Positions 18,675 to 43,119 of a DNA stretch of 64,000 nucleotides are shown piece after piece; within the stretch, counting starts at the first letter, position 1, and every line of letters starts with the position of its first letter. The translations under genes were made by a program, and so were the position numbers. The notes under the pieces were generated by a model. It saw only the letters and a list, made by a program, of their open reading frames with translations, was not told the DNA's origin and ran no database searches. The DNA comes from an uncultured Bacilli bacterium (GTDB taxonomy: Bacteria > Bacillota_I > Bacilli_A > RFN20 > DUOF01). Location of the stretch: contig CALVUJ010000023.1 in NCBI GenBank assembly GCA_944363575.1, positions 1-64,000 of the forward strand, in the 5' to 3' direction.

Positions 18675-18695
18675 AAAAAGCACTTTAAAGTGCTT
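18675..18695 (-). terminator. Terminator of the giant surface protein gene
   Basis: AAGCACTTT/AAAGTGCTT is a perfect 18-base inverted repeat (18678-18695) with a short T run on the minus-strand 3' side. It lies between the giant gene's stop codon and the pth start. Confidence 0.75.
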
Positions 18696-18703
18696 ATTTG
18701 CCA

Positions 18704-21700
18704 TTATTTCAATACTTTTACTTTCTTCTTGAAGACTACTACTTTAAGTCCTATAAAGATTAAACCTGCTGAAGAGATAAATATTAAGGACCATCCTAAT
18801 GGATCTTTAGTAAAGAAGTTTTCACCAATTTCAAATCCAAGTTGTTCTTTTGCAACATTTTTGTTTACAATAATTGCATATACGAAGCCACCAGCTTGAT
18901 TAATTTGATTTTTATGCTCATCTGAAATAGTAATTATTACATTTTTATTTTGATTAATATATTTAGCAGTTCCATCATCTATTAAAATATATGCACTTTT
19001 ATCAAGTGATTTGTAACAAAGTACTCCTTGAGCACATTCTGGATTGCTACCATAATAATTAGTAGGAGTGGCAAAAACAATTACATCATCCTTTTTAAAT
19101 TCATAGCCTTCTCCTCCATTTAGAGCAATATTATCTACTGGGAATAAGTATTGTTTATTTGGTACTAATTTAACATTATCCAAGCAGATGCTATCACTCT
19201 TGTTAATGGTTAACTTGTGAGTAATGGAGTTACCCGCTAAGTCCGTAAAGTTAAAGACATATTCGCCTGTTTCATTTAAAACGGTTCGTTTTTGATATGG
19301 CTTGCCATTTAGTGTCACTTTAATGATTGGTGCCACTAGTTCATTTTTAGGTTCATCCCAAGTAATGAATGTATCTTCTGTGATGATATCATTTATAACG
19401 TTAAGTTTATTGTTAACATAGATGTAATATTTTGGTGCTTGCCTATAAATTATGAAGTGTCTTTCTAAACCTTCATTTCCTACCGCATCTACTGGTTTTA
19501 CTTCATAATATCCTTCATCAATTATTTCTAGACTACTTGATGTTTGGGTTATCCATTCATCATATGTCCCATCCGCTTTCATCTTACGATACATAAAGTA
19601 ATTTCCTTCATTGTTATCAACTGATTCCACAAGTACCTTATCAGCATTCGTGTACCCTTTTTCTGATAATCCATAAGTAACATATTCATTTGAAACAGTT
19701 ACTTTAATTTTTGGTTTTTCATTATCAATTGTTATATATTTTATTTCTCTACCAGTAGTAATGTTACCAACTTCATCTCGTGCTATTATCATATAAGAAC
19801 CCGTTTCTGATAAAGTATAATTAGAAGTGAAAGATTCTACTACTGGAGTTACACTACAACTATATGTATTATCACCATATTCATCTACTCCTGTCACAAC
19901 ACATTGATTGTAAATAGTACCCTCTCCATTAGAATCAATTAAGATTCTTACTTCACCTTTATAAAAACCATAAAGCTCTTCTTGATTTCCTTCAACTGTA
20001 ATATTTGGTGCAATCTTATCAATAGTAAACTCTAACTCTGTTGCTAAATTTTCATATATATATCCATCTACTCCCTTTATAGAAACAACATATTTATATC
20101 TTGTTTCATAACTTTCAGAAACAACAGTTGGATCTCTTAGAACTATTTCTTGATACCCACTTCCTGTGAACTTATAAACCTTTATATTATATATATCACA
20201 ATTTGAAGTTACTGATTCAAAATAACAAATCAATTTAGCATTATTCTTTATTTTCTTTCCTGGCGTAACTATAGAATCTTGAATAATAACTCCATTATCA
20301 TCTAACTCATGCACTTCAATTTCTGGTAAGACAACCATAATGGTAAATGAAATCTTATTTGCTATCGTTGTATTCCCTGCATAATCTTCAAACCAAAAAC
20401 TATATCTTGTACTCTTTTTATCTTGTATTTTAAAAGTATATTCTTTGTTATCTTTAGAGAACCCTGTGTTATTTCCATTACAAGGTAATTCGCTTTCATC
20501 AATATCAGGAGTATTTTCATCATCTATGTACTCACATTCAAATTCTAACTTTATCAATGGCTCTCTCCATTTAATTGTTATCTCTGCATTAGTATACTCA
20601 TTGTTATTTTCAAAGCCCACAGAACCAGATGGTAATCTAACAACAAAATCACTTATGTCATAATTAGGTAATGTTTTATCAATATCAAATAGATAATAAG
20701 TTATTGTCTCATATATTGAACTTACCTCTTGTTTCTTAGTCTGATATGCTATCACATTATCTACATATGCTTTGATGTTTTGACATTCCTCTTTCAAACT
20801 ATTATCTTCACTATTAATACACATAGCACTAATTCTTTCTGATTCCCTATTTATAATCTCTACTTTATACTTTCCTTCATCTACATAAGTTAAAATAGAA
20901 TTAGTATATGTTCCCTCTACGAATTGTGGTTCTACTTTGTTATTTTCATTTTCTCCACAAAGACTAATATTGCTATTATTCATTTCTTTAGTATTACAAA
21001 CAATCTCAAAACCACTTTCATTTTGTTTATATAGAAGAATATAATTATCTTCATTATTCCAAGATACCTTTAATGAATCATTTGCCGTCATCCTATATTC
21101 TTCATCCATATTAGGAGTTATATACTTATAAGATCCATTGTAATTAGCACTTAAATCTACTGGATTATAAATAAACTTTAATTCATTAGTATTACCATGA
21201 TCATCTTTTAAACTTATATAAAAGAATCCAAATAACTTTTTACTACTATCAATTACTGCTGTATAACTATTTTTTCCATCTATTGGGCCAGTATTTAAAC
21301 ATCCATTTGAACCTGCAACGCAAAGTAATGCTTCCTTAATATCACCTGTTTGATCTTCTAAATAATTACTACCATCATTACTATACTTTATAACTATTTC
21401 TTCCGTTTTTATTTTAGTAAGTTCAGAATCTTCAAGTATCAATGTTACCGTTTGATCTTTTCCTTCACCTGAATATGTAATATCTATACTAGGTGCTGTT
21501 TGGCTACGAGACACTTCTATATATGTTTTATTTCCTGCTCTATCGTAAATTTCTATTATAGTGAATGCTTCTTCTGCAAGTGGTATTTCAAAGTAGTAAC
21601 TACCACTATCACTATCTAACACTATATAATCGTTAATATTGTGATATACCCCATTTATTACTAATCGCAAGTAAGAATATACTTCATTTTCATTTTTGTG

Positions 21701-24700
21701 TATTTCATATTTTTTCATGAAGTCATTTTCACTTTCACCATTGTTTTTAATAATAAGGCTGTATTGTTCAACATTTGTTTTTACATTTCCAAAGCCATCT
21801 GTATTAATTAGATTGGTTGAGTTAATGGTCTCATTTTCTTTTGAGTAAATTGCTATCGGGTCAGCATTATCGACATATACAGCATAATATGTAGAGTTAT
21901 AATGGGAAATATTAGATGATCCACCTTCTGTTTTATAATTAATATATTCTACCCCTGTATCTATTTCTTCAAATATATAATATTGCCCTGTGTTTAAATC
22001 TATTGTACTACTACTTGTATATTCCGTGCTACTAGCACCATTATAAGCTGTTATTTTAGAGGTATCTGCTGTATTTTCTCCCTTTATTTCAAGGGTTATT
22101 TTTTTGTCGTTTACATTTGTTATTTTTACGTTTACTTTAATACATTTAACCTCGTCTGATTCAGTACAAGTTTCCACAACTGTTTTAGTTGTACCTTCTA
22201 TTTTTAAATATATAAACTTATACATATCTTCATTAGTAAGGCAATTTTCAGATACTGATGAATCACAAGCCTTTTGCATTATTGCCGAATCTCCAAATAA
22301 TAGGTTGCCACTAAATGTCGGAAATATAATAGCATCAAATAAATTTGTAGCCATTTCTTCATTTGCCATGTCCTTATTGGTTTTATTGTCTGTACCAACA
22401 AAACATGTTGTAGTAATACTACCTTGGCCCGCCGGATTATAATAGCTATAACTAAACCCTTGCCCGTTATTACAATTATTATCTTCTTGAGCATCTATAT
22501 GTTTTGCATAAATTGTTGTTAAAAACATTTTTGCCTCTGCTCTTGTTGCAAATGCATAGAAAAAATCATTATTTAATCCTGAACCCAAAATATTATATGA
22601 ATTGCCAGTTAAATCTTGAGTTATGCTAGTTATATAATTCATATTCCCAGAATTTATAACACCACTAGGTACACTAAACCAATAATTAGCTCCGGTCGCA
22701 GATATTTGTTCTTTATTGTATGTTGGTGCGGTGTTGTCTATCGTAAATGATGATGAATTTTCTTGAGTACCCGACCCTGTTATTCTTCCTGTTTCATTTC
22801 CTGCCTTGTCAACAGCTTTTATTTGATACTCCCCATCTTCTCTAAAACGAAGTATAATTGAAGTAACAAGATAAACATTATCTTCTTCATATGTAGCACC
22901 TGGCTCATATGCGACCAGATTCCCATCTACATCTAGTTTATAATAAGTGTTATAAAAATATTTAGTTTCGGCTTCAGGTACTTTTGTATATTTTATTTCA
23001 TATATCGTCTCGTCTTTACCATTTTTTATCGAGTATATAATGGAATCTCCTCCTGTTTCTAGTGTTGGATTTCCTGTTAGAAGATTTTCACATAGAGAAT
23101 ATACTTCATCACCACCCGTTTTTATACAATAAAATTGTGCTTCTTCACTAGTCGACACTTCATAATATAGTTTTCCATTATCATCTACTAATGCATTAAT
23201 GTAAAATGCAGGTTTTGTTAAATCAATAATATAACTATACTCTACATAATTATACTTCAATGTCATAATATCATCCACTGTACCATCTATGTTGATAGAT
23301 GATTTTATATAACTTCCCTTATCATGGAAATATATTTTGTATACACCCGCATTTTTATCATTTGTCACACTAAAATTATTGGTTATATTTTCTACACTTA
23401 AAGTAAGATTACTATTACTTCCGCTAAATATTTCTGTAGGTAACTCACAAGTAACACTACCGTCTGAACATGTGTATCTGTAATATACTGCCTCATATTC
23501 ATTATCAACACTTATAGTTATCTTATTATGAGCACCATAAATCTCTTCTTTACTCTTTATCTCATCATTGACTTTTAATATTGGTGCCGTTGTATCTGTG
23601 ATATATACAGTCTTATAAATAGTATCACTAACATTACCAGACCTATCTATTACACGATATTCTATTTTATATACTCCTACTTTATCATTTACAATTACTT
23701 CTTGTTCTTCCCAATAACTAGCATTTGTTAATAATGAAGGATAATAATTAGAATCATCTATAATATAACAATAGTCCCCTATGCATGTTCCACTATTTCC
23801 TTTTAGGATATAGTCTGTTGGTTTCTTAATCAAAATATAATATTTTGTATTAGAATCTTTTGTTGACCCATCACTTACTATTGTAAACACACCATTATTT
23901 AAAGTATAATTACCAAATGTTATATTATGGTTAAATTTATAATACTTAATTTCATACCTAAATGTGTTATCTACAAGAGAAGAAACACCTATTTCATTTA
24001 TTTTATTATTAATGTTATCTATTGATGTAGTTTCGTTTTTAAATCCACCAGTTATATAATCTGAATCATATCCATCTGATGGTGAAGAACTATCACCATA
24101 TTTTGCTTCAATATATTCATCTTCTTCAACACCCTCATTAAAGTCAATGGTAGGTTTTTCTCTATCTATAAATAAATGATTTATTTTAAGACTGTTTCCT
24201 GAAAAATCATAAACCGTTATATTGTAATTAACATAGTATTCTCCTTCTTTTTCATATACTAGACTAAAACTCTTTTTATCTTCTCTATAATCAAATTCTG
24301 TATTATGGAAAGAGCAGTCTCTTATTTGATTTAAATTTGAATCATAATAAGTGCATTCTACTTTGTAAATAGGTTCACTAAACTCTATTACGATATTCTC
24401 TTTAGTTATGTAGTTTCCTTCTAAATCAACAGTTTCGGCTTTATAATATGTTGTTCCATCCTCTTTAGTTAATCCATCTTCTACTTTTTCATAAACTGTT
24501 ACGCCAACATAATAACGATCGTCAATAGTGTCATCTGAACAAGCAACTTCTGTATACCCCTCTCCGTTATATGTGTAGTATTTATTGTCATTATTACATG
24601 ATAAACCCTCTTTATTAACAACTTTATAATATTTCGTAACCTGTACATAATTATTTAACGTAGTACCTCCACTCTCATCTTTTTCGTATTTTATTGAATA

Positions 24701-27700
24701 ACCATTAGTTATTTCTGGGCCTATCTCATCTGTTACTCGAATAACCGTCTCTAAATAATTTGATGCTGTGTTGCCAGCACCATCCTTTGCCCTAAAAATA
24801 ATTGGCCTTCCTAACTCAGATGCTAATCCAAAAGCAAATCTAACTTCTTCATTTGCACTATTTTTTGCTATTTGCCAAATACGATTATCTAAAACAGCAT
24901 CTTTTTCAGTATTATCTTGTAGTGTTATCTTTCTTACCAAACTAGATGTTTCCTCTTCGCTCTTATATACAAAATTATAATACGTAATACTATTTCCATC
25001 AAAACTATTTAATTTAACGCGATTATCAGAAACCATTACACAATTCCCGTTATTTACACTAATACATGAATTCTTTAATGTTAAAGCAGGTAAATACTTT
25101 CCTGAATCACTAGCATAGTTATTAGTTTCATAATAGTAACTAGTGTATTGCGTATTATCAATAGCACTCTTATCTTCCACTAAAGTATAGTCACTAGATG
25201 AATAAGTAAAATATTGATCTTCACTTGTAAAGTGTCCAGAATTCATATACTTTAGATAAAGTAAACATTGATGATTTGCACCACATGCCATTTCATCAGT
25301 GTATGTGTTATATGTTGCGGTATTCGTATACATATCTTGAATAGATACTTCTACGTACGTAGATCCACTCATATAATAATAGGAGATATTTGGGTTAATA
25401 TATTCATTATTGTATACTCTTATGTATTTTCCTTTTGTATAAATGTTTGTCTCTCCATCCTTTGCTGCTTGTAAATCATTTGCACTACCAAACATTGTAT
25501 ACACTCTTTTGTATAAGTTGACATTTGGTTCAACATATGTGCCATTATCAACTATTGAATATGTTCCGTTAATGTTTCTTATATAGTTGTTATAGGCTAC
25601 TCTCATTGCTTCAAAACTTTCAATTACTATTTTATTATCCATTCCTGCTTTTTCTGGAGTATCTTTACATATCACTTTACCAGATATTAAAGTTTCACTA
25701 TCTGAGCAATCAAAGATTCCTAAAGAACTATCAGCAGGAGTAGATAACATTTTGTCCATATCATCAGTACTAACACCTGCTCCAAAATTAGTAATTGGAG
25801 TATATGAAGAATCATAGTAAATATATGGATTTTGGTTATCAAATTCAAAATCCTGTTTCAAATTTACCTCATTTCCAAAATAATCTCTAATTGTTAAATC
25901 TAATGTTTGTAGACCTGTTAATCTTTCTTCTTCATTGAAAGTAATAACAAAGGAAACAGTAACGCCATCTTCATTTACCAAGCAAACAATAGGGTCATCA
26001 ACATCTCCACTTATAATACATTTATTCTCATTTGTATTATCTCTAGCAATTCCGATAGATACTGTTTTTTCATTTATTGAGTATATGATTGTAAGCATAT
26101 TGTCATCTCTATCTGTTAAAAAACTTCTTTCTTGGATAGTTAATTTAATATTTACATATTGTTGGTATTCACCTAAAGGCTTATCATTAATATCTTTTAT
26201 TTCTACTACTGATGGTGCTGTTTTATCAATTGTAAATTTGTATACCGTTTCATTGCCTACTGCATCTAAGAAAACTATTGTATAATCACCACTATCACTA
26301 AATTCAATATAATTGCCACCAAACGAGTATTCTTTAGAATACGAAAAAGCATTATAAACATCTCCATCATTAATTTTAAACACAAGCAGTCTATTTATTG
26401 AACCTTGGTTTTGGCCACTCGCATCTTTATAGAAAAGCATTTCGTTCGTAAGCAATAATCTCATATTGTAACTTCCTATATTAGTTAATGTTACAAAATC
26501 TGGATTTTCACCAGTATTTGTATATTGATCTTGAGCTTTTATACCATTACATTCTCGATCTTCATCACATGTTAACTCAAAATCTATTTTAGGGCTAACA
26601 GTATCAATCGTGAAAGAGTGTTCTACTGGAAGTGCAACATAATCGTAACTTTCTCCTTCTATTTGTACCTCTACAAGAATTTCGCTATGTACACGGTAGG
26701 TTCCATCTTGAGTAAAGGCCACATATAAATAATCACCTTCTCTTCCTACAACATAAATTCCTTCTGTAGCTAATTCTTCAGCTGCATCATTAATAGTAGG
26801 ATTAGTATCGGTACTTGCATACCCACTTGTAGTAGCTTTTAGTTGTTTTGTACATTCAGGTAAATTACCTACCGAAACATTCACTCCATACAATACAAAC
26901 ATACATGATAAATTTGTAGTCTCATTATTGCGATAATTTCCTACGTTATTTAGGTATGTTGCTCGGCTTAGTTGAATAACACTAAATGCATTGATTTTTA
27001 ATTTAATGTAAATAAATTGATTGGTGAAGAACATTCCTCCATCAAAACCATTTCTTAACTCACTTGGTATCATATCTTCATAAGCATATGTATCTGGAAC
27101 CCTTGCTAGAAAAACATTTCCTGTATTTGTACCCACTTCTAGTTTTGGCAGTTTTGAAGTGATTGTCTCTATACTTTCTATGTGACTTTCATCAGCATTT
27201 ATATAAATATCTGATTCTGCTTTTTCTAGCCCTATTCCACCATAAGTTTCAGAAATATTATTAAAAGTATCACCTAGAGTTATTTTATACAATCCTTTGG
27301 ATATATTAAATATCTGGTTCTCTCCTTCTTTAAGAACATAGTTGTTTTCCTCATCCATCTCGTAAACAGGTATACTTAACCCTCCAGTTGTTGTATTATC
27401 AAGGTTAGTTTTTGTAAGTATAAATGGTAAACTAATTGAATATGTAATTTCTGGTATATACTCATCATCTGCTTCTGCTTTTTTTAACTCTGCTTCATTT
27501 ATAGCTGTTAGTATTTCAATGTAATTCATAATAGCCTCACTTATTGTAGTAGTATCCGCACATTTGTCACATGCTTCACTTTTTGTGTATGCTATTACTA
27601 AACTATCTATTTCATTTTTATCATAAAAATCAATTACTAATGTAAAACTTTCAGATTCATTGTCAATGACACTAACAGTAGGTTTCGCTTTACCTATTTG

Positions 27701-30700
27701 CAAATAAGCATCTATTTTATTTCCTGTTCTATCATACACATGAATTTCATATATATTATTTGGTTTTTCTGAATCATGTTCAAATGTTCTTTTTATGTAT
27801 TCATCAATATTTTCAAGGCAACTACTGCTATTTATAAGGCTGTTACACGTTAGATAATATTTTTTTCCTTCAATCATAGTATAGGCATAAGGATCAATAT
27901 CTAAAATGCTAGTTATATCCATTGTCGTAGATATTTTTAATGGATTATCTTTACTTATAGAGGTTATAATCTCTCCTGTTGGACCACTTACTAGAGAATA
28001 TTTTACTATAGGTGCTGTTCTATCTATTATAAATGTTGCTTCTGCTCCACATTTTCTAGTTTCTTCATTTAAATAATTAGAGCAGTATCGTATTGTATAT
28101 TTTCCTTCATCTATATATGTACCGTTTGTTGCAAAAGATACTAACGTTGCAGTATCAAACGTTTTATATGATGTTGATGCCGTGCTACTGAACTCATAAT
28201 TATCAATTGCATAGTAATCAACTACTAGATAAATATTAGCAGGAACGTTTATAGAAAAGTTTTGCATATATTTAATCGTTGTCATTTCTTCTTTAAAATA
28301 TTCCGTTGAAGGTAATGAAACATTTCCTTGATATCTATTATTACTTTCACTAACAAAATAATTATATTCCTCAACAATTAAAGTAGCAACTTCTTTTATC
28401 CTACTTAAGCTAGCAAAAGCAAATCCTGTATATTGGGTACAATTACCACTAAGTTCTCCATTTAATGTTCGACATTCTCCATTAGAAAATTTCAAATCAA
28501 TGTAATATACAAAATAATAGTTTAAATTAGATAGTCTAGCAGTTTCTCCTCTAAAAGCCGTTATTCCACTTGAAATATAGTTATATTTTCCTTTTACTAA
28601 TGCTATTCTTGCAAACTCTTGTAAAATAGCGAATTCTTGTGCTTTTTCTATGCTTTGGAAGGCTGCCGTTGTTAATTGTGGTTCTCCTTCTAATTTTATA
28701 TAGTTTGATGATGTGTAGGTATTTGTTCTTTCATCGATAACAAAGTTTCCTTCGGCATTTAATATATAATATGTTGTTCCAGGTTCTTTCAACTGATTAT
28801 TTTCTACTGGATAATAATATTCTTCCCATAACTCTTTTCTAGTCGCTCCTGCAACATTATCTCCAATTTGTTGCACTCTTGAATATAAATACCATTTATC
28901 AATTCCCATTTCTTCAATAACAATATCTTCAGGTATAAGACCTTCTGTTATGTCGACATTTCTTCCTAAGATAAAGGTCATTCCTAACGCATTTTCAAAT
29001 CGATGATATGTAGAATATTGCGTAATAATAGTGGAATCAAGAGTTACTGTTGATGGAAAGCCAACCTTTTGACTTCCATATATTAAATGATATTCTTCTA
29101 ATATATTTTCTCCTGTACACACTTGGCTGCCATCATTACATATTACTGTGTTTTGAACAATGTTTAAATTCTCATAGTTAGCTAATTCCGTAGTATCAAC
29201 AATCACTAATAAAGAATCTTGTCCTCCTTTATTTTCTGTCACTATTGCTTCTATGCTATTTGATTGAGTTGTTCCTACAAACAAATAATGAATCTCGCCA
29301 TCTGCTTCTTTTTTTACAATTACATCTTGTATTTCTACCCCTAGATTTCCAGCAATAGTATATTCACTTATTTGAATAGTGCTTTCTTCAATCGTTATGA
29401 CAGAATAATAACCTGCACTTGCTCTATTACCTGCTGCAACGAAAGAGTTACCTTCTATATTTTTAATAGATAATAAATTATCTTCTGATGATGTACCACT
29501 TAATTTAATGTCTACGATTATAAATTCTCCACTCATAAATACATATAAAGAATCTTCAACCCCTGAATTATAATTTATACTGCTACCATTAACTCTATCT
29601 ATTCTTGATTGACCAACAACCAAATAATTTGATCCATATTGAATAATATCGTTAAAACTTGTAATTGTTGTAGTCGCACCATTATTATTTAAATAAAGAT
29701 ATGGGTCTTGATTAGTGCATTCAAAGGCCTCAACAGAACAAACTGTGATAAGTCCTCCTTCTGCACCAGCATAATTTTGTATGTTTGTGCTTCCTACTGC
29801 TACTAATTTACTAATAGAACCATCACTAATAGTTATTAACGAATTATATTGAGAATTTATAGTTCCTGTTGGAGTAGCGATTTGCTCACTTACAAGTTCG
29901 TTTCCATTTATTGTTAATCTAACTATTTTACCTATTCTTACATTATTTTCTTCTTTATATCCTACACCTAACAAATAATTTCCAGAAATAACCATTTTTT
30001 TAACATTAGTCATTTCACTTATTTCTGCAATGGTTCCTGTGGTAGAACTTATGGTTCCAGTAACATATTCATCTTCAATTCCTGATTGCTCCATAAGTTG
30101 AATTAATTTGACAAAGCCTACTACTGCACTAGTACTATTAGTGTACTCTCCTGCAATATAGTAACGCTTGCTTGATGAATAAATTATATCATTAATCTTC
30201 GCATTTTCTATCTCATACTGCCACAAATATTCCCCACGCAAGTTGAACGCAACAATATACCCTTTTGTGCCAAGATTTCCTACGGCTAGGTAACCATGAG
30301 ATCCTGCTATCACTTTATTAAAAGCATCATTTTCTGCTGAACTTGCTTCTTCATTTGCACCTAACCATATTCTTCTAGAATCATTTAAATTGTATGGCAA
30401 AACCCTAATGTTTCTTGTGATAGAAACAGAAGGATCACTCGTTAAGTAGTATTTTATTTTATAAAATCCAGCATTTCTAACAGCATCATTTGCAATTCCT
30501 ATTCCTGAATTACTTGTTTCTAATGCTGTTCCATTATTTATTTGCACACTTACATTTGTTTCGCTAACCCCGTCACAGATTACCATTACTCCACTATCTG
30601 TCCATCCTGAACTCGTGTTTAAAACAAGATACTCATTTCCATCATTTAATGAGATGCTACAAGTTTGTGCTTTAATGTTTTCTCCTTCACAAAAAACAAA

Positions 30701-30763
30701 AAAAGAAAACATTAATAACAACGAAAAAAATGTTCTCTTTATTAATTTATTAATAAAATGCAT
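18704..30763 (-). CDS. Giant secreted, membrane-anchored surface protein with Ig-like repeats
   Basis: 4019 residues. The N terminus is a signal peptide (KLIKRTFFSLLLMFSFFVFC, cut probably near KAQ). Residues about 140-560 contain repeated strands of the type GYIVAFN...YIAGEY, suggesting a beta-propeller-like region. From about 915 onward there are at least twelve Ig-like repeats. They are marked by [IV]D-x-x-[AKLN]P (IDRTAPIV, IDKTAPSVV, IDREKPTIDF, IDNTAPTY, IDKIAPNITV, IDNEKPKIKV) and by D-x-A/S-GN before the next domain. Tyr-rich hairpin modules interrupt them. Residues about 3991-4011 are a membrane segment (GWSLIFISSAGLIFIGLKVV) followed by KKKVKVLK. There is no LPXTG motif. About 58 Cys occur, mostly in close pairs. 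The likely role is adhesion or cell-surface architecture, by inference from domains; partners are unknown. Confidence 0.85.
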   Translation of the reverse strand: MHFINKLIKRTFFSLLLMFSFFVFCEGENIKAQTCSISLNDGNEYLVLNTSSGWTDSGVMVICDGVSETNVSVQINNGTALETSNSGIGIANDAVRNAGFYKIKYYLTSDPSVSITRNIRVLPYNLNDSRRIWLGANEEASSAENDAFNKVIAGSHGYLAVGNLGTKGYIVAFNLRGEYLWQYEIENAKINDIIYSSSKRYYIAGEYTNSTSAVVGFVKLIQLMEQSGIEDEYVTGTISSTTGTIAEISEMTNVKKMVISGNYLLGVGYKEENNVRIGKIVRLTINGNELVSEQIATPTGTINSQYNSLITISDGSISKLVAVGSTNIQNYAGAEGGLITVCSVEAFECTNQDPYLYLNNNGATTTITSFNDIIQYGSNYLVVGQSRIDRVNGSSINYNSGVEDSLYVFMSGEFIIVDIKLSGTSSEDNLLSIKNIEGNSFVAAGNRASAGYYSVITIEESTIQISEYTIAGNLGVEIQDVIVKKEADGEIHYLFVGTTQSNSIEAIVTENKGGQDSLLVIVDTTELANYENLNIVQNTVICNDGSQVCTGENILEEYHLIYGSQKVGFPSTVTLDSTIITQYSTYHRFENALGMTFILGRNVDITEGLIPEDIVIEEMGIDKWYLYSRVQQIGDNVAGATRKELWEEYYYPVENNQLKEPGTTYYILNAEGNFVIDERTNTYTSSNYIKLEGEPQLTTAAFQSIEKAQEFAILQEFARIALVKGKYNYISSGITAFRGETARLSNLNYYFVYYIDLKFSNGECRTLNGELSGNCTQYTGFAFASLSRIKEVATLIVEEYNYFVSESNNRYQGNVSLPSTEYFKEEMTTIKYMQNFSINVPANIYLVVDYYAIDNYEFSSTASTSYKTFDTATLVSFATNGTYIDEGKYTIRYCSNYLNEETRKCGAEATFIIDRTAPIVKYSLVSGPTGEIITSISKDNPLKISTTMDITSILDIDPYAYTMIEGKKYYLTCNSLINSSSCLENIDEYIKRTFEHDSEKPNNIYEIHVYDRTGNKIDAYLQIGKAKPTVSVIDNESESFTLVIDFYDKNEIDSLVIAYTKSEACDKCADTTTISEAIMNYIEILTAINEAELKKAEADDEYIPEITYSISLPFILTKTNLDNTTTGGLSIPVYEMDEENNYVLKEGENQIFNISKGLYKITLGDTFNNISETYGGIGLEKAESDIYINADESHIESIETITSKLPKLEVGTNTGNVFLARVPDTYAYEDMIPSELRNGFDGGMFFTNQFIYIKLKINAFSVIQLSRATYLNNVGNYRNNETTNLSCMFVLYGVNVSVGNLPECTKQLKATTSGYASTDTNPTINDAAEELATEGIYVVGREGDYLYVAFTQDGTYRVHSEILVEVQIEGESYDYVALPVEHSFTIDTVSPKIDFELTCDEDRECNGIKAQDQYTNTGENPDFVTLTNIGSYNMRLLLTNEMLFYKDASGQNQGSINRLLVFKINDGDVYNAFSYSKEYSFGGNYIEFSDSGDYTIVFLDAVGNETVYKFTIDKTAPSVVEIKDINDKPLGEYQQYVNIKLTIQERSFLTDRDDNMLTIIYSINEKTVSIGIARDNTNENKCIISGDVDDPIVCLVNEDGVTVSFVITFNEEERLTGLQTLDLTIRDYFGNEVNLKQDFEFDNQNPYIYYDSSYTPITNFGAGVSTDDMDKMLSTPADSSLGIFDCSDSETLISGKVICKDTPEKAGMDNKIVIESFEAMRVAYNNYIRNINGTYSIVDNGTYVEPNVNLYKRVYTMFGSANDLQAAKDGETNIYTKGKYIRVYNNEYINPNISYYYMSGSTYVEVSIQDMYTNTATYNTYTDEMACGANHQCLLYLKYMNSGHFTSEDQYFTYSSSDYTLVEDKSAIDNTQYTSYYYETNNYASDSGKYLPALTLKNSCISVNNGNCVMVSDNRVKLNSFDGNSITYYNFVYKSEEETSSLVRKITLQDNTEKDAVLDNRIWQIAKNSANEEVRFAFGLASELGRPIIFRAKDGAGNTASNYLETVIRVTDEIGPEITNGYSIKYEKDESGGTTLNNYVQVTKYYKVVNKEGLSCNNDNKYYTYNGEGYTEVACSDDTIDDRYYVGVTVYEKVEDGLTKEDGTTYYKAETVDLEGNYITKENIVIEFSEPIYKVECTYYDSNLNQIRDCSFHNTEFDYREDKKSFSLVYEKEGEYYVNYNITVYDFSGNSLKINHLFIDREKPTIDFNEGVEEDEYIEAKYGDSSSPSDGYDSDYITGGFKNETTSIDNINNKINEIGVSSLVDNTFRYEIKYYKFNHNITFGNYTLNNGVFTIVSDGSTKDSNTKYYILIKKPTDYILKGNSGTCIGDYCYIIDDSNYYPSLLTNASYWEEQEVIVNDKVGVYKIEYRVIDRSGNVSDTIYKTVYITDTTAPILKVNDEIKSKEEIYGAHNKITISVDNEYEAVYYRYTCSDGSVTCELPTEIFSGSNSNLTLSVENITNNFSVTNDKNAGVYKIYFHDKGSYIKSSINIDGTVDDIMTLKYNYVEYSYIIDLTKPAFYINALVDDNGKLYYEVSTSEEAQFYCIKTGGDEVYSLCENLLTGNPTLETGGDSIIYSIKNGKDETIYEIKYTKVPEAETKYFYNTYYKLDVDGNLVAYEPGATYEEDNVYLVTSIILRFREDGEYQIKAVDKAGNETGRITGSGTQENSSSFTIDNTAPTYNKEQISATGANYWFSVPSGVINSGNMNYITSITQDLTGNSYNILGSGLNNDFFYAFATRAEAKMFLTTIYAKHIDAQEDNNCNNGQGFSYSYYNPAGQGSITTTCFVGTDNKTNKDMANEEMATNLFDAIIFPTFSGNLLFGDSAIMQKACDSSVSENCLTNEDMYKFIYLKIEGTTKTVVETCTESDEVKCIKVNVKITNVNDKKITLEIKGENTADTSKITAYNGASSTEYTSSSTIDLNTGQYYIFEEIDTGVEYINYKTEGGSSNISHYNSTYYAVYVDNADPIAIYSKENETINSTNLINTDGFGNVKTNVEQYSLIIKNNGESENDFMKKYEIHKNENEVYSYLRLVINGVYHNINDYIVLDSDSGSYYFEIPLAEEAFTIIEIYDRAGNKTYIEVSRSQTAPSIDITYSGEGKDQTVTLILEDSELTKIKTEEIVIKYSNDGSNYLEDQTGDIKEALLCVAGSNGCLNTGPIDGKNSYTAVIDSSKKLFGFFYISLKDDHGNTNELKFIYNPVDLSANYNGSYKYITPNMDEEYRMTANDSLKVSWNNEDNYILLYKQNESGFEIVCNTKEMNNSNISLCGENENNKVEPQFVEGTYTNSILTYVDEGKYKVEIINRESERISAMCINSEDNSLKEECQNIKAYVDNVIAYQTKKQEVSSIYETITYYLFDIDKTLPNYDISDFVVRLPSGSVGFENNNEYTNAEITIKWREPLIKLEFECEYIDDENTPDIDESELPCNGNNTGFSKDNKEYTFKIQDKKSTRYSFWFEDYAGNTTIANKISFTIMVVLPEIEVHELDDNGVIIQDSIVTPGKKIKNNAKLICYFESVTSNCDIYNIKVYKFTGSGYQEIVLRDPTVVSESYETRYKYVVSIKGVDGYIYENLATELEFTIDKIAPNITVEGNQEELYGFYKGEVRILIDSNGEGTIYNQCVVTGVDEYGDNTYSCSVTPVVESFTSNYTLSETGSYMIIARDEVGNITTGREIKYITIDNEKPKIKVTVSNEYVTYGLSEKGYTNADKVLVESVDNNEGNYFMYRKMKADGTYDEWITQTSSSLEIIDEGYYEVKPVDAVGNEGLERHFIIYRQAPKYYIYVNNKLNVINDIITEDTFITWDEPKNELVAPIIKVTLNGKPYQKRTVLNETGEYVFNFTDLAGNSITHKLTINKSDSICLDNVKLVPNKQYLFPVDNIALNGGEGYEFKKDDVIVFATPTNYYGSNPECAQGVLCYKSLDKSAYILIDDGTAKYINQNKNVIITISDEHKNQINQAGGFVYAIIVNKNVAKEQLGFEIGENFFTKDPLGWSLIFISSAGLIFIGLKVVVFKKKVKVLK

Positions 30764-30791: not shown

Positions 30792-30820
30792 ATTGTAAAT
30801 TAATTAAATTTTTTATTCAA
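30792..30820 (-). promoter_or_regulatory. Promoter of the giant surface protein gene
   Basis: On the minus strand TTGAAT (30815-30820) and TACAAT (30792-30797) are 17 bases apart, 29 bases upstream of the start codon. An AAAGG ribosome binding site lies between. Confidence 0.6.
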
Positions 30821-30902: not shown

Positions 30903-31527
30903 ATGTATTTAAGCGAAAAAGAGAGATTGAAAATGATTGAAAAAGCGCTTTTTTCTAACGGGTTAACCTTTAAAAATATGTCTTTTTTATTTAATAGAAA
31001 AATGTTCAATTCTTCAATTTTATTAAATGAAAGAAAGTTTGGATCTTTAACAAATGAAAGTGTTGCTTCTTGTTTTATTCCAACTAAGGAGAACATTGCT
31101 GTTGAAAATATTGTTGGACTACAATATTGACTCAATTAAAATTAATAATGATTTTTTATTTAAAAATAATCGTTTTGCTATTAGCAATAAATTTTGGGGG
31201 ATTAAAAATATTCCCTATTCTGATATAGAATTTATTGATAAGAAAATAAGTTCAATTTCTTTTCCTAAATTAAGTTTTGATTATTTTTTATCCGGAGATT
31301 TTGAACGCAAAAAGTTTTCTTTAAAATTTAATTGTTTTGATTATGGGAATATTGTGGTTAATAGAGAAAAGTTAAACAAGTTTATTGATGATAATGAAGA
31401 AATCTTAACTTTTAGTAATTTTTTTAATGAAATGAGTTTTAAAAATTTATCTTTTGGGGATGCTAAAAACATTATTAGTACAATGGCTAAATTAGATAAT
31501 TTGATTCTAAATAAGAGAAAATTATAA
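30903..31527 (+). pseudogene. Frameshifted gene of unknown function
   Basis: An open frame starts at the ATG 30903 (MYLSEKERLKMIEKAL) with a strong promoter and binding site. It stops at 31128-31130 after ENIVGLQY. A second frame (offset by one base, open from 31054) continues to 31527 as NIDSIKINNDFLFKNNRFAISNK... and ends in KLDNLILNKRKL. The second frame has no ribosome binding site at its first ATG (31054). Its composition is protein-like only from about 31125 on. The simplest reading is one gene of about 205 residues broken near 31080-31130 by an indel, a sequencing error or programmed frameshifting. I do not recognise the product; it appears soluble and basic. It ends one base before the convergent folD stop. 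Confidence 0.5.
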
Positions 31528-42728: not shown

Positions 42729-43119
42729 TCTTACACCTCCATTAGATAATACATATAGCGATAAAATTATAATTTTTTTTATTATTTAAGTCAATTATTT
42801 TGTTATAGTATTTATTCACAAAAAATGTTAATAAATTAACTTTATTAGTGGATAAATCTATTTTTTTCTTACATATTGTAAGACAAATAAATGTTTATAA
42901 ATTTTTTATTTGTGGAAAATAAATAACATTTTTTTCAACTGTTAATAAATTTTTTATTTTAAACAAAAAAATTAACAATTTATTTTGTGGAAAAATAGTA
43001 TTTTATTTAGAATTTGTAGGTATAATATATGTGGATATGTTTGTGGAAAGTAAATTTATTAATTTTTTTTCCACAATATGTGTTATATTTATTCTTGTCA
43101 TGGGGAGAGAGGTTATTTT
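42729..43119. other. Origin region upstream of dnaA (oriC part 1)
   Basis: 391 non-coding, very AT-rich bases between rpmH and dnaA. Near-consensus DnaA boxes (consensus TTATCCACA, one mismatch each) lie at 42812-42820 (TTATTCACA), 42847-42855, 42911-42919, 42986-42994, 43030-43038 (the last four on the reverse strand) and 43067-43075 (TTTTCCACA). A weaker copy is at 43042-43050. No perfect box is present here. The dnaA -10 TATAAT at 43021-43026 is overlapped by or next to boxes, suggesting autoregulation. Confidence 0.8.

Follow-up and report, generated by a model that had tools for sequence, protein, structure and literature searches.

The stretch of DNA analysed here, hereafter the window, is 64,000 nucleotides long and belongs to an uncultured Bacilli bacterium (contig CALVUJ010000023.1). 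The window was found to contain a single 12 kb gene on the reverse strand, encoding a surface protein of 4019 amino acids. The sequence-only reading of this DNA had claimed such a gene, and both the ORF listing and the translation showed it to be intact and without interruption. The downstream neighbours of the giant gene were pth and mfd, and upstream of it, beyond a small ORF on the opposite strand, the genes folD, dihydrouridine synthase, Clp ATPase and yabG were present. Its earlier placement between pth and folD was right, save for this ORF of 157 aa (31054-31527, plus strand), which matched no Pfam family and had no counterpart between folD and the giant in a relative, where that gap is short. 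The ORFs at 43078 and 44605 had the lengths and order of dnaA and dnaN at the same place in a relative. An Rfam search located a T-box leader at 62058-62258, which precedes the ORF at 62302, and a small SRP RNA gene at 63608-63704. The features of the giant gene, all on the minus strand, were as follows.

18675..18695 (-): weak terminator candidate, a short hairpin with a T run behind it, past the stop codon (sequence, folding)
18704..30763 (-): ORF of the giant surface protein, 4019 aa (ORF listing and translation; orthologues at this place in relatives)
18707..18730 (-): basic cytoplasmic tail KKKVKVLK (translation; the basic tail is conserved)
18731..18796 (-): C-terminal membrane segment, residues 3990-4011 (hydropathy)
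18800..19186 (-): conserved juxtamembrane domain, residues 3860-3988 (alignment)
19184..28261 (-): Ig-like stalk, residues 835-3860, at least 16 domains (iterated HMM; likeness to SiiE BIg50-52; cysteine statistics)
29186..30352 (-): N-terminal head, residues 138-526, seven weak blade-like repeats (leave-one-out repeat test)
30668..30763 (-): signal peptide of residues 1-32, with cleavage predicted behind IKA (sequence; orthologue alignment)
30792..30820 (-): candidate sigma-A promoter TTGAAT-17-TACAAT (scan)

The gene had been credited with its own promoter and its own terminator. The promoter candidate TTGAAT-17-TACAAT was located upstream of the gene, but its 9 of 12 consensus matches are a level common by chance here. 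The bases before the start codon, GAAAGGCGTGGTAGTATGCAT, resembled those of the relative, GAAAGGCAGTGGGGTATATGCAT. The anatomy described earlier (signal peptide, head, Ig stalk and membrane segment) stood. The short hairpin with its T run at 18695-18675 was weak, was undetected by the terminator scanner and had no counterpart in two orthologues, where the gap from the giant gene to pth was about 14-21 nt and contained no hairpin. In the two relatives at any rate, transcription is likely to run on into pth-mfd.

A full-length orthologue of about 4430 aa was found on JAFWYE010000006 of Bacilli bacterium RGIG6178, a sheep rectum MAG, in the gene order folD-giant-pth-mfd, which matches the window. 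The two proteins were about 27% identical overall, with 27% over the head and a similar value over most of the stalk. DUOF01000035, from a third genus, contained the last 920 residues of another orthologue directly before pth-mfd, the gene being cut by the contig end. Homologues at this locus that were short and unrelated to adhesion had been named as grounds against the earlier claim, and the homologues found were long. In G003, the fourth genus of this family, other genes and no giant preceded pth, and no giant gene was found at about 24 loci of other families in which the upstream pth flank was readable; on these counts, the idea of a giant next to pth across the whole order was given up. 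When 279 genomes of the order were searched for the head, only that of the window and one relative contained it. As judged from these assemblies, the giant gene beside pth is confined to three of the four genera of one family. From this distribution at the locus and the divergence among relatives, the gene is best seen as an old, fast-diverging resident of that family.

The N-terminus of the giant protein, MHFINKLIKRTFFSLLLMFSFFVFCEGENIKAQT, contained a basic n-region, a hydrophobic core and an IKA-type cleavage site, and the orthologue contained IKAASDC at the equivalent site in the alignment, in agreement with the signal peptide proposed earlier. At the other end, residues 3990-4011 had the highest hydropathy in the entire protein and were followed by the basic tail, as had also been proposed; a segment that did not span the membrane, the other named ground for giving up the claim, is contradicted by this strong hydrophobicity. 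In the C-terminal alignment, DP[LI]GW followed by a hydrophobic stretch was kept in three genera, and Cys3860 and Cys3910 of the juxtamembrane domain were invariant across three genera. A motif search of the giant protein found no LPXTG, as stated before, and sortase (PF04203) had no match in its own genome (91% complete) or in three other genomes of the family. Penicillin-binding proteins were found in these genomes and sortase was not; the cell therefore has a wall, and no anchor other than the membrane segment is visible, so the earlier idea of anchoring by the membrane segment rather than by a sortase holds up. In an order-wide search, the penicillin-binding transpeptidase family PF00905 had no match in 6 of 13 genomes, in several other families of the order; its absence there and its retention in the family of the giant suggest a loss of the cell wall within the order.

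The head contained seven YLxVGxx...GxIVxLxxxG segments, which recurred 43-62 residues apart between residues 138 and 526. In a leave-one-out comparison with shuffles, for which the repeat anchors were picked by eye, six of the seven segments ranked in the top 6% or better and three in the top 1%. AlphaFold modelling of the head with a two-sequence alignment gave a pLDDT of 35, with a strand pattern in this low-confidence model. The blade profile had no match in the PDB, and profile library searches of the head gave none. A seven-bladed beta-propeller is a possible fold, which the repeats fit with moderate support, and we treat it as a lead. The sequence-only reading had called the propeller probable; seven weak repeats, six of which beat shuffles, speak for it, but the word was too generous because no library or PDB match was found and the model was uninformative.

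The stalk was found to hold most of the cysteine pairs described below. An iterated profile, seeded with the DxxGN...IDxxxP hairpin, detected 16 Ig-like domains in the giant protein, 17 in the orthologue and 4 in the partial orthologue, with 2 false matches in 20 shuffled copies (0.1 per copy); the earlier count of at least twelve Ig repeats was thus confirmed. The DxxGN hairpin was conserved in the stalk domains. The best PDB match of a profile built from the domains of this protein family was BIg50-52 of SiiE (2yn3), with an E-value of 1.8e-7 that is the sum over three weak domains; on addition of paralogue domains, the E-value for 2yn3 was 3e-9. Single members of the wider domain set matched Pfam Bact_surface_Ig-like and Big_13. 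The full-length giant protein matched no Pfam family and no PDB sequence because the repeats are very divergent, and NCBIfam gave one sub-threshold OmpL47 match for it. An AlphaFold model of one Ig domain, made from a 38-row alignment, had a mean pLDDT of 58 and was too poor to show the fold, and every Foldseek match of this low-confidence model had an E-value of 4 or worse. No off-diagonal match was found in a self-BLAST of the giant protein and no tandem DNA repeats were found in its gene, on which grounds a recent expansion of the repeats was rejected.

The giant protein contained 58 cysteines (1.4%), 56 of which were located within 25 residues of another cysteine, as against 29.7 expected and a maximum of 44 in 5000 random placements. 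The same was seen in the orthologue (38 of 49 cysteines; 20.6 expected), whereas 34 other genes of the window contained 66 close cysteines vs. 65.2 expected, which is no excess. When the two orthologues were compared, 12 pairs were kept (a class inflated somewhat by the preference of the aligner for Cys-Cys columns), 14 were lost whole and 2 were split, where about 13.9 splits were expected. None of 20000 permutations, in which cysteines evolved singly, reached so few splits; with strict columns the test was weaker (p 0.006 and 0.002). This suggests that the pairs form about 28 short-range disulfides, which in our reading mostly link adjacent strands within the first half of an Ig domain. The close cysteine pairing is new here; this pairing and the restriction of the gene at this locus to one lineage were missed in the first reading.

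The DsbA families PF01323 and PF13462 and the VKOR family PF07884 had no match in the genome of the window (91% complete) or in the family genomes; control profiles matched in these searches, which covered DsbA and VKOR only. The genome did contain two exported lipoproteins with thioredoxin domains, one with a CYGC motif and the other with CGGC plus CSDC, and relatives of these were found in genomes G001 and G002. The CYGC protein is encoded in a cluster of three exported lipoproteins (L063 1306-3129; G000:C9), together with a 245-aa protein of unknown kind and a 189-aa protein containing a TGATxS motif as in FMN-binding proteins; the cluster looks like an extracytoplasmic redox group. The other protein, with its two thioredoxin domains, is 341 aa long (L064 886-1911; G000:C24). 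These exported thioredoxin-like lipoproteins are candidate disulfide catalysts and could equally be reductases. As no DsbA or VKOR was found, the route to the disulfides is a proposed one, and the presumed gut niche is anaerobic, which counts against the disulfide reading. The wider proposal is that disulfides, about one to each Ig domain, are the main stabiliser of the giant stalks of this family, and that exported thioredoxin-like lipoproteins form them without DsbA or VKOR. Such a route of oxidative folding, in a small-genome Firmicutes lineage that is presumably anaerobic, would be undescribed, and we regard the proposal as speculative.

The reading that we prefer, with a probability of roughly 0.6, is that the gene encodes a Sec-exported surface adhesin, in which a head is carried on a disulfide-stiffened Ig stalk and anchored by the membrane segment. 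The product would be exported by Sec, and the head, possibly a seven-bladed propeller, would be held off the cell by the stalk with its 16 or more Ig-like domains. The C-terminal membrane segment and the positive stop-transfer tail, not a sortase, would retain the protein on the cell. About 28 short-range disulfides, probably formed by the exported thioredoxin-like lipoproteins, would stiffen the stalk and protect it from proteases, and the head would bind a ligand on the gut surface, on fibre or on neighbouring cells. Of this, the export signal, the Ig repeats, the membrane segment, the conservation of the locus and the pairing of the cysteines can be read directly from the sequences. We infer adhesion from the architecture and from the likeness of the repeats to the BIg domains of SiiE; attachment, which had been suggested before as a benefit of the gene, is the most likely function and our best guess rather than a result.

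A passive coat or spacer, in which a long fibrous layer shields the cell from phage, bile or proteases and the head has no receptor function, would agree with the fast divergence noted above, which is about as great over the head as over most of the stalk, and with the profile searches, in which no known binding domain was found in the giant protein. Moreover, G003 has a different and far more regular Ig giant elsewhere, as if bulk alone mattered. However, head and juxtamembrane part are conserved in length and plan from genus to genus, which a pure spacer need not be, and in known giants the N-terminal heads of such a layout are usually binding modules (PMC12863079, PMC10619420). We therefore consider a mere coat unlikely.

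Propeller-like heads and Ig spacers can be found in glycan-handling proteins, and the head could be an enzyme or a module that captures substrates (e.g., by binding glycans for a cell-bound uptake system); the Ig domains would then serve as a spacer, like those of surface glycan-binding proteins. Very weak profile matches to the surface glycan-binding protein 6e57 (E 0.06) and to the chitinase Fn3 1k85 are in line with this, but no catalytic family was matched in the profile searches, and the adjoining genes are housekeeping only, with no transport or enzyme genes alongside, which makes such a head improbable. That the paired cysteines bind metal, or result from duplication of the repeats, and do not form disulfides would fit the failure to detect DsbA or VKOR but is very doubtful, because metal knuckles are unlikely with a pair spacing that varies from 3 to 28 (mostly 6-15), one CxxC pair only and 0.6% histidine, the stalk domains are too divergent for a recent duplication, and pairs were gained and lost as units between the orthologues.

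Besides the adhesin candidate, other Ig-repeat proteins were found. The same genome contained a second giant Ig-repeat surface protein of at least 2606 aa, cut by the contig end (L020 6956-14776; G000:C25), with a C-terminal membrane segment, a mixed charged tail and only 12 cysteines, 10 of them paired. The C-terminal end of a third Ig-repeat protein (L062 1781-3295; G000:C10) adjoined a cytoplasmic thioredoxin gene and had a sub-threshold match to an Internalin K domain. The regular Ig giant of G003 (L019 7225-13842; G003:C8) was at least 2205 aa long and lay at a locus other than pth; all 50 of its 50 cysteines were paired, in a CNGxW...SCT pattern. Weak matches to Ig proteins of 1600-1900 aa in G010 and G012 were rejected: these proteins are encoded on a mobile element and are not orthologous. 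Nearly identical mobile-element-like segments were present in two different families of the order (L022 and L023), each carrying an Ig-repeat surface protein of 1600-1900 aa, and the copy number of a 288-aa repeat differed between them.

A giant Ig-stalk surface protein is an ordinary kind of object, and the present one is an unusual version of it: it is membrane-anchored without a sortase, it is found at its locus in one small family, and it apparently contains about 28 disulfides without the usual oxidases. Firmicutes, above all the aerobes, are described as largely excluding cysteine from their exported proteins (PMC9974433, PMC6606811). Here a reduced-genome Bacilli lineage, in which no oxidase was recognised, devotes about 1% of its genome to a single surface protein that has about 28 apparent disulfides. 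Two questions are thereby made testable, namely by what means such cells make disulfides, and whether these bonds can take the place of calcium or of ester and isopeptide bonds in stiffening giant Ig stalks. The protein is also a concrete candidate for the attachment of uncultured small-genome gut bacteria.

Compared with known systems, the giant protein shares a signal peptide, an N-terminal head, an Ig stalk and a hydrophobic C-terminus with a basic tail with the MSCRAMM-type adhesins, whereas those are anchored by LPXTG and sortase; the giant has no LPXTG, and no sortase was detected in its family's genomes. Surface proteins of several thousand residues are likewise found in small-genome Bacilli as Giant1-5 of Apilactobacillus kunkeei (PMC12863079), which shows that such bacteria do retain giant surface protein genes. 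These also contain an N-terminal head and a long Asn-rich stalk, but Giant1-4 have beta-solenoid heads, helical stalks occur in three of the five, and the C-terminal domains belong to the SH3b-like DUF5776 type. The giant adhesin of Mobiluncus mulieris is likewise a single chain of many Ig-like domains that is covalently stabilised, there by ester and isopeptide bonds and some disulfides (PMC10619420). Mobiluncus is an actinobacterium, from a phylum with dedicated disulfide machinery (PMC9974433). The ester-bond motif HxDxxDxxQ of cross-linked adhesins such as Cpe0147 and that of Mobiluncus had no match in the three orthologues of our study, in which the cysteine pairs are the main candidate cross-link. 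The closest likeness in the domain profiles was to SiiE of Salmonella enterica (PMC5466336; PDB 2yn3/2yn5), also a very long bacterial Ig chain and a stiff stalk for first contact. SiiE is exported by type 1 secretion, whereas the giant here bears a Sec signal peptide and, at its C-terminus, a membrane segment, and its gene lies among housekeeping genes; and the stalk of SiiE is stiffened by calcium ions (PMC5466336), whereas paired cysteines would take that part in the giant described here.
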